A stretch of DNA of 64,000 nt from Acidobacteriota bacterium (GTDB lineage: Bacteria; Acidobacteriota; Blastocatellia; Pyrinomonadales; Pyrinomonadaceae): the NCBI GenBank assembly GCA_003697135.1, contig RFGC01000035.1:434001-498000 (forward strand), given 5' to 3'. This document shows, one piece after another, positions 7,453-11,912 of the stretch (within the stretch, counting starts at the first letter, position 1; the number at the start of each line of letters is the position of its first letter). The notes beneath the pieces are model-generated. The model was not told where the DNA came from. It saw nothing but the letters and a program-made list of their open reading frames with translations, and did not search any database. The position numbers were made by a program, and so were the translations under genes.

Positions 7453-8073
7453 TTATTGAGATTTTACAGGCTGCTGCGATTTCAAAGAAATCAACTCTTC
7501 GATTTTTTTTCTTAAAACCGCAGTGTTAAACCTGCCTTGATACGAGTAGATTTCCTTGCCGTCGGAGTCAAACAAAATAGTAAAAGGCAAGCCGCCTTGC
7601 CATTTTTCGGACACGAGATTTGCTGCAGCCGTTTCGTCCTCGCTTTTTAAGAGATATGCTGGCATTTGCGCATTTACTTTAGCCAAAAACCTAGGGACAT
7701 CACGGTTTATTTCTACTGGATAATCTAACGAAATTACTGCAACATCAATCTCAGTGCCGTAATCCTTGTGAATTTTGACCAAATCTGGAAATTCCTCACG
7801 GCAAACGTCGCACCAAGTAGCCCAAAAATTTATCAAAAGCGGCTTGCCTTTGGGTTTTATTGTTTCTTTCAATCCCTCGTTGTTAATCAAAATAACTGTG
7901 GGAAGTTTTCCATATCGGCTTTTGCTATCTGTCTTCCTTTCACTTGTCTTCTCAATGTTTGCACCTTTCGTTTTTCTAACTTGAGTCTTTTTTCTAACCT
8001 GAGAAAAGGCTTCTGTGCTGAAAAGAGACATAAGCATAAGTAGCAGAACGAACTCTGCGAATCTAAATTTCAT
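7453..8073 (-). CDS. TlpA-like exported thioredoxin-fold protein
   Basis: 206 aa. Signal peptide (1-24), a basic low-complexity linker, then a TlpA/ResA thioredoxin domain with active site WCDVC (Cys88, Cys91) and a cis-Pro region LPFTILF. These proteins reduce or transfer disulfides in the periplasm, often in cytochrome c maturation, but no heme genes are near. The ATG has GGGAG 7 nt upstream. It begins 23 bp after the stop of another redoxin gene (8097-8732) on the same strand, so the two are probably co-transcribed. Confidence 0.85.
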   Translation of the reverse strand: MKFRFAEFVLLLMLMSLFSTEAFSQVRKKTQVRKTKGANIEKTSERKTDSKSRYGKLPTVILINNEGLKETIKPKGKPLLINFWATWCDVCREEFPDLVKIHKDYGTEIDVAVISLDYPVEINRDVPRFLAKVNAQMPAYLLKSEDETAAANLVSEKWQGGLPFTILFDSDGKEIYSYQGRFNTAVLRKKIEELISLKSQQPVKSQ

Positions 8074-8096
8074 AAATTTTCTCCCGCTTAACCCTT

Positions 8097-8732
8097 TTAC
8101 GAAACCTTGGTTCGGCGAATTGTTATGCTCGTGGTTTCAGGTTTTACCTTCTCTTCAGTTCTCTTAATCGTGCAACCAAATGCCTTTGTTGAAGCCTTGG
8201 CTATCGCTTTCTTCATCAAAAGCCCGTCCAACGCATCACGCAAGTAGTTTTCCGTGATATTCTTTCCCGAACGGTCGTTGTCAATAGCGCCTTTGTAAAT
8301 AAGTTTGCCGTTTGAATCGAACAGAAACACCTCTGGCGTGACGGAAGCATTCAATTCATCGGCTAGAACATTTCCTTTGTCAATCAAAACAGGGAAACCG
8401 TATGTTTCTCTTGCATGAGAACCAATCTGCTCAGGCGATTCTGTAGAATTCGAGTTGATACCTATAAAAGCAATTCCTTTTGATTTGTATTCATTGAAAA
8501 TCTGATTGATTCTTTCGTTGTATCCTTTGACTACAGGGCATTGAACCGACAGAAAAATAACAACTGTGCCCTTCTCGCCTTTTAGAGCCTTGAAAGTTTG
8601 CTCTTTACCATCAGCATCAACCAACTTGAAATCTTCAAGAACTAATTCATAATCATCAGCAGAAACCTGCACCGATTGGGCAAGCACCAAAAACACAAAA
8701 GTTGCGACCAAAAGAAAAACAGCTTTTCTCAT
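8097..8732 (-). CDS. Exported redoxin (AhpC/TSA-type) with a single active-site cysteine
   Basis: 211 aa. Signal peptide (1-25) and an AhpC/TSA redoxin domain. The active-site loop is SVQCPVV, so the first Cys (65) is kept but the position of the resolving Cys in CxxC is Val68. Another Cys occurs only near the C-terminus (FGCTI). It may act as a one-Cys peroxiredoxin-like protein or a disulfide acceptor. AAGGAG lies 9 nt before the ATG. It precedes the TlpA-like gene at 7453-8073 in the same direction, suggesting a shared periplasmic redox role. Confidence 0.8.
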   Translation of the reverse strand: MRKAVFLLVATFVFLVLAQSVQVSADDYELVLEDFKLVDADGKEQTFKALKGEKGTVVIFLSVQCPVVKGYNERINQIFNEYKSKGIAFIGINSNSTESPEQIGSHARETYGFPVLIDKGNVLADELNASVTPEVFLFDSNGKLIYKGAIDNDRSGKNITENYLRDALDGLLMKKAIAKASTKAFGCTIKRTEEKVKPETTSITIRRTKVS

Positions 8733-8851: not shown

Positions 8852-9214
8852 CTAAAAACCTCTACAACTACACATTAGACAGCGATCACAAGGTTTAGGT
8901 GTCGGTTCAAGTGGACAAATTTCATGGTTTTCTTCTGCAAGCGATTTGAGCGAGAAAAATTTTTCTTGGCTTGGGTGAGAAGATTTCGGAATCAATACTT
9001 CGGGAGTTACAATCTCGCTCGAAAAATCGCTAAGCTTTTCGGCATCGGACTTTTTTTCGGTGTCAACATCTTTGAAAAGAAAAGCCTCGATCCTATCGAG
9101 CCGCTGATTTATAAGCTCAAGGTTTTGCTGGAAAGACGAAAAAATCTTTTCTCTGTCGTTTTCCTCTTCCTTCAGAAGTTCTAGCAAAACTTGGATTGTT
9201 TTCTTATCGAGCAT
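8852..9214 (-). CDS. Small coiled-coil protein with C-terminal cysteine cluster, microcompartment-associated
   Basis: 120 aa. Not recognised as a named family. Residues 1-16 (MLDKKTIQVLLELLKE) form an amphipathic helix reminiscent of microcompartment encapsulation peptides. A charged coiled coil follows to about residue 45, then a low-complexity linker, and the C-terminus ends in CDRCLMCSC, four cysteines in nine residues that could bind metal or an iron-sulfur cluster. Its start overlaps the stop of the preceding EutN-like gene by 11 bp, so it is translationally coupled to the shell genes. Inferred to be a cargo or shell-linked protein of the microcompartment. A plus-strand reading frame over the same bases is judged a shadow. 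Confidence 0.7.
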   Translation of the reverse strand: MLDKKTIQVLLELLKEEENDREKIFSSFQQNLELINQRLDRIEAFLFKDVDTEKKSDAEKLSDFSSEIVTPEVLIPKSSHPSQEKFFSLKSLAEENHEICPLEPTPKPCDRCLMCSCRGF

Positions 9215-9494
9215 TCTGATTTGGAAGCAAATCTATGTAATCAACCACTCCGACTATTGCGGAATCTATAGCGGCTCCGGGTTTGCCTGTAGCCGACGTT
9301 GACGCACTCCAACCTTCTTGGGTGATTATAACAATATCGCCTTCGCCTGCATCAACAGCATCTACTGCTAGACAAGTATAATCCATGTCTTCGCCTTCAG
9401 GCGTGATCTGACGGCAAAGCATTATGCGTGCTCCTTCGTAACGCTGGTTTTTCTGCGTTGAAACTATACTGCCTATGACACGCGCCAAAATCAC
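9204..9494 (-). CDS. BMC-P (EutN/CcmL family) microcompartment vertex protein, copy 3
   Basis: 96 aa, the normal size for the EutN/CcmL pentamer family. It opens with ARVIGSIVST, the family start motif, and closes with the DSAIVGVVDYIDLL strand. Pentamers cap the vertices of icosahedral microcompartment shells. Start codon GTG overlaps the TGA of the preceding BMC-P gene (GTGA). It differs clearly from its two neighbours (for example the insert QEGWSASTSATGK before the last strand), so the three are not recent duplicates. Confidence 0.92.
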   Translation of the reverse strand: MILARVIGSIVSTQKNQRYEGARIMLCRQITPEGEDMDYTCLAVDAVDAGEGDIVIITQEGWSASTSATGKPGAAIDSAIVGVVDYIDLLPNQNAR

Positions 9495-10068: not shown

Positions 10069-10341
10069 TTACTTCACAGGCAAAGTTTCATCAACGCTTG
10101 AATGCGGCCTTGGGATAACATGCACACCAACCAATTCACCAACACGCCTTGCTGCAGCTGCGCCTGCATCGGTTGCCGCCTTTACTGCTGCTACGTCTCC
10201 TCTTACGATTGCCGTTACATATCCGGCACCGATTTTCTCATAGCCAACAAGACGAACATTTGCGGCTTTAACCATTGCATCAGCCGCTTCAATCGTTGCT
10301 ACCAAACCCCTTGTTTCGACCATTCCGAGTGCTTCCTGCAT
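10069..10341 (-). CDS. BMC-H microcompartment hexameric shell protein (PduA/EutM/CcmK family)
   Basis: 90 aa single BMC domain. It begins [20 protein letters not shown], the classic start, followed by the pore-loop segment EKIGAGYVT (K36-T43; pore GAG at 38-40, where PduA has GSG) and [16 protein letters not shown]. Hexamers tile the facets of the shell, and the pore passes small polar substrates. The short C-terminal tail is [11 protein letters not shown]. It is the only BMC-H in the window and no tandem BMC-T gene is seen. It lies between the aldolase and the first BMC-P gene. Confidence 0.95.
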
Positions 10342-10387: not shown

Positions 10388-11185
10388 TTAACTTAACTTT
10401 GCTACTTCTGACAAAAGCTCTATGAGTTCCTCACGAGTGAAAGAAAACTTTTTTTCTGAGTTCTTGGTGCTTGTATTTTCTCTTTGAATCTCACAGCTTA
10501 CTTGCAAGTCATGTAGATACCCGCAAGCCTGACATCTTGCTTCTTCAGACAGATAACCTGCCTTTTCGCGAATGTTGATTAGTTTTTCTATTGCATCTTT
10601 TGGCAAATCTTGCGCTCCGCCCAAGATTCTGGCTAAGATGGCAATTTTAGCCGTGTGTTCTAGAGTTTCGAGCCTGTCAAAAGCCTGCCAAAGGTCTGCA
10701 CCATAAGCAACAGCACCATGATTCTGCATCAAAAGTGCGTTGTGATAGGGAATAAACGGCTTCATGGCTTCCGTTAATTCTGTAGTTGAAGGCGTGCCGT
10801 AGCTTGTAAGCGGAACGCATCCGAGCGTTAAGATGACTTCTGAAAGTATGGGCTTATCAATTGATAAACCTGCTACGGCAAATGCAGTCCCATGAGGTGG
10901 ATGAGCATGACAAACAGCTTTAACATCGGGGCGCATTTTGTAAATCAAAAGATGCATCGCAAGCTCTGAAGAAGGTTTCTTGTCATTTAGAGGATTGCCA
11001 TCTAAATCGGTCAAAGCCAGCATGTCTTCGGTCATTCGCCCTTTGCAGGTCATCGTCGGAGTGGCAATAACAAGATTCTCATCAAGCCTTATGCTCAGAT
11101 TGCCATCTGAAGAAACAACATAGCCTCTTTGATAGAGTAGCCTTCCAACCTCAACAATCAGCTTTCTGGCTTGAGATTCTTCCAT
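10388..11185 (-). CDS. Class II aldolase/adducin family protein (FucA-like) with extended C-terminal tail
   Basis: 265 aa. Residues 1-215 align with zinc-dependent L-fuculose-phosphate-type aldolases: catalytic Glu74 and zinc ligands His93, His95 (CHAHPPH) and His156 (NHGAV), nearly the same numbering as E. coli FucA. These enzymes split sugar phosphates into DHAP and an aldehyde such as lactaldehyde. About 50 extra residues follow; the last 19 (FSFTREELIELLSEVAKLS) form an amphipathic helix resembling an encapsulation peptide. Placed directly before the BMC shell genes, as in known fucose/rhamnose microcompartments. Substrate not determinable. Confidence 0.88.
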   Translation of the reverse strand: MEESQARKLIVEVGRLLYQRGYVVSSDGNLSIRLDENLVIATPTMTCKGRMTEDMLALTDLDGNPLNDKKPSSELAMHLLIYKMRPDVKAVCHAHPPHGTAFAVAGLSIDKPILSEVILTLGCVPLTSYGTPSTTELTEAMKPFIPYHNALLMQNHGAVAYGADLWQAFDRLETLEHTAKIAILARILGGAQDLPKDAIEKLINIREKAGYLSEEARCQACGYLHDLQVSCEIQRENTSTKNSEKKFSFTREELIELLSEVAKLS

Positions 11186-11267: not shown

Positions 11268-11912
11268 CTATTGTCTGTTTCCGTTCGCAGGTTGCGAAAG
11301 GAAAAATGCAAGGCTTTCAAGCGATGTTGTTAAATCAACTGTTTTTACCTTAACGGAATCATCGGCTTTTAGAGGCGTTGGGGCAAAGTTTAGCACAGCT
11401 TTAATTCCTGCTTTTACTATTTCGTCCAAAACATCTTGAGCGACAAAAGCAGGAACTGCGATAACGGCAATGTCTATTTTTTCCATTTTGACTATTTTTT
11501 GAAAATCCTTGAAATCGTAAATGCAGGCATTGCCAACTCTTTGACCTATCTTTGATTGGTCTATGTCGAAAAGAGCAACAACTGAAAAGCGGGATTTTTT
11601 GAAGCCGTTGTAATCAGCAAGCGCAGTTCCCAAACGTCCTGCACCGATAATGCAAACACGATGTTCTTTGTCAAGCCCTAAAATTTTGGTTATATGATTT
11701 TTCAAATCTTCAACATAGTAACCAACACCTCTAACACCGAATTCTCCGAAATAAGCTAAATCCTTGCGAATCTGTGCTGAATTAAGATGAAATCGCTTTG
11801 CCAGTTCTTCCGATGAAATCGTTTTTACACCTGCCGCCGAAAGCTCATTCAAACAACGCAAATAAATGCTCAAACGATTCGTCGTTAGCTCTGAGATTTT
11901 TTCTACTTTCAT
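11268..11912 (-). CDS. rex: Redox-sensing transcriptional repressor Rex
   Basis: 214 aa, the normal Rex length. N-terminal winged helix (about 1-75) contains the family segment LNSAQIRKDLAYFGEFG. A Rossmann domain has IIGAGRLGTAL (about 85-95) and a later VIAVPA strand. Rex binds DNA when NAD+ is high and releases it when NADH rises, controlling fermentative and respiratory genes. It lies 82 bp upstream of the microcompartment aldolase on the same strand and is likely the first gene of that operon, tying shell expression to NADH. No complete Rex operator was found upstream by eye. AAAGG precedes the ATG. Confidence 0.93.
   Translation of the reverse strand: MKVEKISELTTNRLSIYLRCLNELSAAGVKTISSEELAKRFHLNSAQIRKDLAYFGEFGVRGVGYYVEDLKNHITKILGLDKEHRVCIIGAGRLGTALADYNGFKKSRFSVVALFDIDQSKIGQRVGNACIYDFKDFQKIVKMEKIDIAVIAVPAFVAQDVLDEIVKAGIKAVLNFAPTPLKADDSVKVKTVDLTTSLESLAFFLSQPANGNRQ

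Follow-up and report, generated by a model that had tools for sequence, protein, structure and literature searches.

The window, the 64,000-nucleotide stretch of acidobacterial DNA analysed here (G000 C12:434001-498000, from a genome of 2.79 Mb that is 97% complete), carries a microcompartment operon with the gene order Rex (11912-11268), class II aldolase, BMC-H, BMC-P1, BMC-P2, BMC-P3 and a gene for a protein of 120 residues. The positions of these genes and of the recognisable parts of the 120-residue protein are collected in Table 1.

Table 1. Genes of the operon and parts of the 120-residue protein (positions in the window)
Feature	Positions	Strand	Basis
120-aa accessory protein: N-terminal helix, coiled coil, linker, HPSQEKF, Cys tail	8852..9214	-	ORF, homologues, dN/dS
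Conserved Cys tail CPLEPTPKPCDRCLMCSCRGF, residues 100-120	8855..8917	-	alignments and PDB profile search
HPSQEKF motif, residues 80-86 (H80 and S82 invariant in A1)	8957..8977	-	alignments
Single continuous predicted helix, residues 4-55, including short coiled coil ELINQRLDRIEAFLF	9050..9205	-	AlphaFold2
Encapsulation-peptide-like amphipathic helix MLDKKTIQVLLELLKEEEND, residues 1-20	9155..9214	-	sequence and model; targeting putative
BMC-P3, third and most divergent pentamer protein	9204..9494	-	PF03319 E=6.8e-22; stop overlaps start of 120-aa gene
BMC-P2	9491..9769	-	PF03319 E=5.1e-31
BMC-P1	9773..10060	-	PF03319 E=1.2e-30
BMC-H shell hexamer, EutM-like	10069..10341	-	PF00936 E=7.7e-31; NCBIfam EutM model over cut-off
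Class II aldolase (FucA/AraD superfamily) with C-terminal encapsulation-peptide-like FTREELIELLSEVAKLS	10388..11185	-	PF00596 E=8e-47
Rex-type redox-sensing regulator, also upstream in most sister loci	11268..11912	-	PF06971/PF02629 and synteny

Compartment type of the locus

The operon resembles the ACI type of microcompartment, which is confined to Acidobacteria according to Sutter et al. 2021 (PMC8217296). Features that the window shares with the type as described there (PMC8217296) are a class II aldolase (PF00596) with a C-terminal encapsulation peptide (recognised by pattern in our case), a triplet of BMC-P together with at least one BMC-H and, at the level of the genome, an aldehyde dehydrogenase on a satellite locus. 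The satellite locus (L277, on G000 C14) encodes a 571-aa PF00171 aldehyde dehydrogenase with an encapsulation-peptide-like ISREEIAAIVDSFLAKRL between two BMC-H genes. A hydroxyacid dehydrogenase (PF00389/PF02826), also given as a feature of the type (PMC8217296), was found neither in the window operon nor, with a dehydrogenase query, in 80 sister loci (L083-L162), and we therefore call the locus only ACI-like; one strong PF02826 protein is encoded elsewhere in the window's genome. The description of the type also mentions 'several proteins of unknown function' (PMC8217296), and the 120-aa protein is probably one of these.

Some other genes at these loci deserve mention. The aldolases of the window and of L083-L162 have a conserved Cys pair (ARCQ[AST]CGYL) just before the terminal helix that is missing in the aldolases of other families; coevolution of the Cys tail with this pair was looked for and not seen. 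Two thioredoxin-fold, ResA/TlpA-like proteins with signal-peptide-like starts are encoded after the operon (window 7453-8732, minus strand), and in the sister loci no thioredoxin-fold neighbour was found within 8 kb of the gene for the 120-aa protein or its relatives (below: the tail gene). The satellite locus has, between the aldehyde dehydrogenase and BMC-H, a gene (L277:7459-8268, plus strand) for a protein of 269 aa that bears a zinc ribbon at its N-terminus and a hydrophobic segment at its C-terminus. A gene beside three BMC-P in another locus (L197:10576-11319, plus strand) combines an encapsulation-peptide-like helix, a Cys-rich CGGCSCDQQGCCK and an RpiB-type isomerase in one protein.

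The tail gene, its relatives and the pentamer genes

The ORF of 120 codons starts with ATG, occupies exactly 8852-9214 of the minus strand and overlaps the third BMC-P ORF (9204-9494) by 11 bp. In seven pairwise comparisons dN/dS was 0.07-0.26 for the whole gene and 0-0.10 for the last 45 codons, which indicates strong purifying selection, and these values together with the conservation across the phylum rule out an ORF artefact. The gene product is thus real and conserved, an accessory protein without a name in a compartment type that is known; no family in Pfam or NCBIfam matched it above cut-off, in line with the earlier note, which had called the protein unrecognised. Profile A1 (26 sequences) has seven invariant columns (H80, S82, C100, C109, C112, C115 and G119). 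Searched as a whole against the PDB this profile returned mostly coiled coils and nothing for the tail, and a Foldseek search with the predicted structure of the window protein gave no PDB match. A scan for consensus promoters and terminators gave no information.

With the protein as query, all but four of the 36 other genomes searched in the same family, hence 32, gave relatives (E <= 3e-4). In total we collected 111 distinct relatives, all from Acidobacteriota; the named ones are mostly Pyrinomonadaceae, including the cultured Pyrinomonas methylaliphatogenes K22. In other families of the phylum, the ORF that comes next after the last BMC-P frequently ends in some version of this tail, e.g. 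MTDDELRALVRAAIAQ...HPSH...CLIEPAITCYRCGYCQSYGH. A scan of genome contigs with the pattern PCD[HN]CxMC returned only records of Acidobacteria (or a sub-group) and one titled 'bacterium'. Viral contigs held no relative and plasmids no true one: the plasmid match with the lowest E-value (0.01, from Phocaeicola) is a zinc-dependent dehydrogenase.

Profile A2 matched 85 of 396 genomes of Acidobacteriota, and 84 of these carry BMC-P (52 from a list of 106 genomes with BMC-P and 32 established by other searches). The sole carrier in which BMC-P was not detected (G220) is 67% complete and its match to the tail gene is weak. The hypergeometric figure for this co-occurrence, 6e-24, is only indicative because it ignores phylogeny and assumes overlapping samples. 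Conversely, the profile search did not detect the tail gene in 54 of the 106 listed genomes with BMC-P.

An association with the pentamer genes was also found at the level of gene order, as the earlier note had expected in linking the protein to microcompartments. For 102 of the 111 distinct members a BMC-P gene precedes the tail gene on the same strand at a distance of no more than 1 kb, and a further five members are at contig or locus edges. Gene order was read for 92 matches, and only at contig ends and in three g9 genomes does the tail gene not come after BMC-P. The adjoining pentamer protein is nearest to P3 of the window in 76 of the 102 cases, and the same holds for none of the other 189 BMC-P that gave a match in these loci; the remaining 26 are nearest to P1 or P2 and presumably come mainly from more distant families, where a best hit cannot assign the P types. 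Neither of the refuting outcomes named in the earlier note, relatives commonly away from microcompartment loci or a lack of conservation in helix and cysteines, was observed, apart from small exceptions. The exception in gene order is a g9 sub-clade (L138, L149 and L160) that keeps the BMC-P triplet and has the tail gene away from it, with the helix reduced or lost; the coordinates in G328, G427 and G458 agree with such a displaced gene.

Some individual arrangements were also recorded. In a g9 sub-clade the tail gene is off the BMC-P triplet in G328, G427, G458 and G459-G461 (by about 28 kb in three genomes), and G357 has the triplet with no tail gene detected. In one locus a gene of the four-helix 23S rRNA-intervening-sequence type (PF05635, E=2.4e-15; L172:787-1149, minus strand) lies between BMC-P3 and the tail gene.

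Helix, middle and cysteine tail

Classical encapsulation peptides are amphipathic terminal helices of 15-20 aa followed by a flexible linker. In the AlphaFold2 model of the window protein (pLDDT 90-98 for residues 1-50) the N-terminal helix instead passes straight into the coiled coil; the flexible linker missing there is present in the short relatives. The cargo-type amphipathic N-terminus proposed in the earlier note is retained in part. A helix is predicted, its hydrophobic moment (muH 0.49) is close to the 0.47 of the PduP peptide, and amphipathicity is seen at the family level (Fisher chi2 140, df 52, a statistic inflated by the kinship of the sequences), but the window helix by itself did not differ significantly from shuffles (p=0.09). 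The helix is conserved in most relatives, the exception being the g9 sub-clade. A look-up in the PDB with the consensus of the encapsulation peptide alone gave no match.

The helix, the HPS motif and the tail recur in other families of Acidobacteriota without the coiled coil, which the window protein does have, as had been noticed before, and which is absent from the short members of those families. The middle differs by lineage: a coiled coil in the Pyrinomonadaceae-type proteins, a plain linker in the short members and a eut_hyp-like domain in L166. The coiled coil is a lineage-specific filler and not a defining part. Residues 6-160 of L166, which has the same tail, match TIGR02536 (eut_hyp) with E=7e-10, below the cut-off of that model, and L189 and L203 match it weakly. 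A structure model of the eut_hyp-like relative had a mean pLDDT of 57.7 and gave meaningless structural matches, and because of this low confidence we claim no fold for it.

The window protein ends in CDRCLMCSCRGF, and the conserved C-terminal signature is C-x2-E-P-x4-C-x2-C-x2-C-x3-G-F. The three most diverse alignments show C1, E, C2, C4 and G without exception, across families, and C3 is nearly invariant in A2; the conserved tail is of a metal-ligand-like kind. The earlier note had spelled it CDRCLMCSC, or CxxCxxCxC. The Cys tail as such is conserved, but this spelling is wrong: of the 114 distinct tails no more than 9 have the last, fifth Cys (among the Pyrinomonadaceae-type tails it is confined to the genus of the window protein), and the invariant Cys100, which with Glu103 lies upstream of Cys109 (nine residues for the Cys), was overlooked. 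The 114 distinct C-terminal matches, one of which (L139) is probably spurious, have three to five Cys each. In several members C3 is replaced by Ser, Thr or Gly, and the C2-C3-C4 spacing is variable. A terminal His might substitute as ligand in the three-Cys tails; five of the seven end in His, and because two do not, we do not claim this as a rule.

The spacing is compatible with zinc or with an iron-sulphur cluster. When the tail profile A4 was searched against the PDB up to E=10, only three sequences matched, all weakly: an alcohol dehydrogenase (E 0.017), a ketose reductase (E 0.037) and an L-idonate 5-dehydrogenase (E 1.1). All three align at the string EPGxPCxxCxxC or part of it, a string that is the structural zinc lobe of these zinc-dependent dehydrogenases; the resemblance was first noticed because the Phocaeicola plasmid match is such an enzyme. 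Three Cys are in register with the lobe of medium-chain dehydrogenases. That lobe has four (C-x2-C-x2-C-x7-C), and its fourth position would fall beyond the C-terminus of the tail; the fourth Cys is downstream in the dehydrogenases and upstream (C1) in the tail; the rest of the dehydrogenase fold is absent. The similarity is suggestive but weak, and it may be due to convergence. A single consensus query of the PDB gave a match to HiPIP (E 0.44). In our judgement, the putative metal of the tail is likelier to be zinc than an iron-sulphur cluster.

A possible link between cargo and shell

The combination of a cargo-like end, a conserved knob and an exchangeable spacer, in a protein whose gene keeps to a pentamer gene, points to a bridge that joins lumen and shell. 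We propose, with a probability of a little under one half (about 0.48), that the protein serves as a small structural accessory in the ACI-like compartment and couples cargo to the shell through its helix and a zinc-type knob. The N-terminal amphipathic helix would dock in lumenal helix-binding sites, just as the helices at the ends of the aldolase and the aldehyde dehydrogenase would. The Cys tail would fold round a single metal ion, zinc being the likeliest, to give a rigid knob. This knob may bind a partner in the shell, the likeliest being the BMC-P whose gene lies immediately upstream, and the middle, whichever the lineage has, would set the spacing or the oligomeric state. Cargo and shell would then be coupled at the vertices or close to them, much as with PduM or the N-terminus of PduB. 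The shell-linker idea of the earlier note is thus also the reading that we favour, and since the tail recurs beside the genes for the corners across the phylum, the protein is probably an assembly or linker part that has so far gone undescribed. Operon adjacency by itself is no proof of contact with a shell protein, and the weak PDB match (best E 0.017), the upstream place of the fourth Cys, the three-Cys members, the displaced g9 sub-clade without the helix and the 54 of 106 genomes in which no member was detected speak against the proposal.

The gene overlap and the P3-type adjacency would also suit a factor that acts at the vertex only, on BMC-P3 (in folding, pentamer choice or capping), with the helix as a mere retention device and no bridge to cargo, and members of the g9 sub-clade have the tail without the helix. 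We consider this unlikely; most families retain the helix, and it resembles cargo peptides. The earlier note had also thought of an electron carrier, in which CxxCxxC and the upstream Cys would hold a [4Fe-4S] cluster and electrons would be shuttled through or inside the shell, PduT/PduS-like in effect. CxxCxxC plus one further Cys is a classic [4Fe-4S] spacing, Fe-S clusters are known in microcompartment shells, and a redox regulator, Rex, stands at the head of the locus. The profile search of the PDB, however, led to zinc lobes and not to ferredoxins, with HiPIP appearing only for the single consensus query. This likeness to a redox-inert structural lobe, weak as it is, the replacements of C3 with the variable spacing around it, and the window locus, which showed neither an obvious electron donor or acceptor nor a B12, Fe-S or flavin partner, leave the idea unsupported, and we regard a lumenal redox relay as distinctly unlikely.

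Less probable again is a zinc chaperone or activator, whose tail would bring zinc into the lumen for the co-encoded metal-dependent aldolase. Class II aldolases of the FucA/AraD superfamily are zinc enzymes, the aldolase is in the same operon in most loci, and in the Pyrinomonadaceae-type loci it has the Cys pair before its terminal helix. Yet the tail gene is strictly adjacent to BMC-P and not to the aldolase, the Cys pair is absent where the tail persists, and several families of Blastocatellia have the tail gene beside BMC-P with no aldolase detected in the stretch examined.

The coupling of cargo to shell could be generalised to a modular tag that is used throughout the phylum, a new class of proteins in which a metal-binding tail, exchangeable middles and a cargo-type helix join the lumen to the pentamer vertices in Acidobacteriota; we consider this extension possible but rather doubtful. 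The protein bears on how metabolosomes other than Pdu, and compartments other than carboxysomes, attach their cargo core to the shell, and on what distinguishes three pentamer paralogues in one shell. Short, easily made, with a conserved tail and nearly always encoded beside a pentamer gene, it offers a direct way into both questions in a type of compartment that is widespread in soil Acidobacteriota.

Among known microcompartment proteins, the eut_hyp domain of TIGR02536, the model of a hypothetical ethanolamine-utilization protein, is absent altogether from the window protein, which had no match to this profile, and even the tail-bearing L166 reaches only 38.9 bits against a cut-off of 152.6. 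PduM, a structural protein of low abundance, has a signal sequence at its N-terminus, and when PduM is lost, core and shell partly separate (PMC12108088, PMC9132943); a direct link between PduM and PduB has been questioned (PMC12108088). The window protein did not match PduM models, and we draw the comparison as a likeness and not as membership. PduM is not known to have a Cys tail. Common to both proteins are an N-terminal helix, putatively of the signal type in the window protein, and a small body, an occurrence limited to microcompartments and a proposed coupling of core and shell, and just as the pduM gene lies near pduN (BMC-P), the gene of the 120-aa protein adjoins BMC-P.
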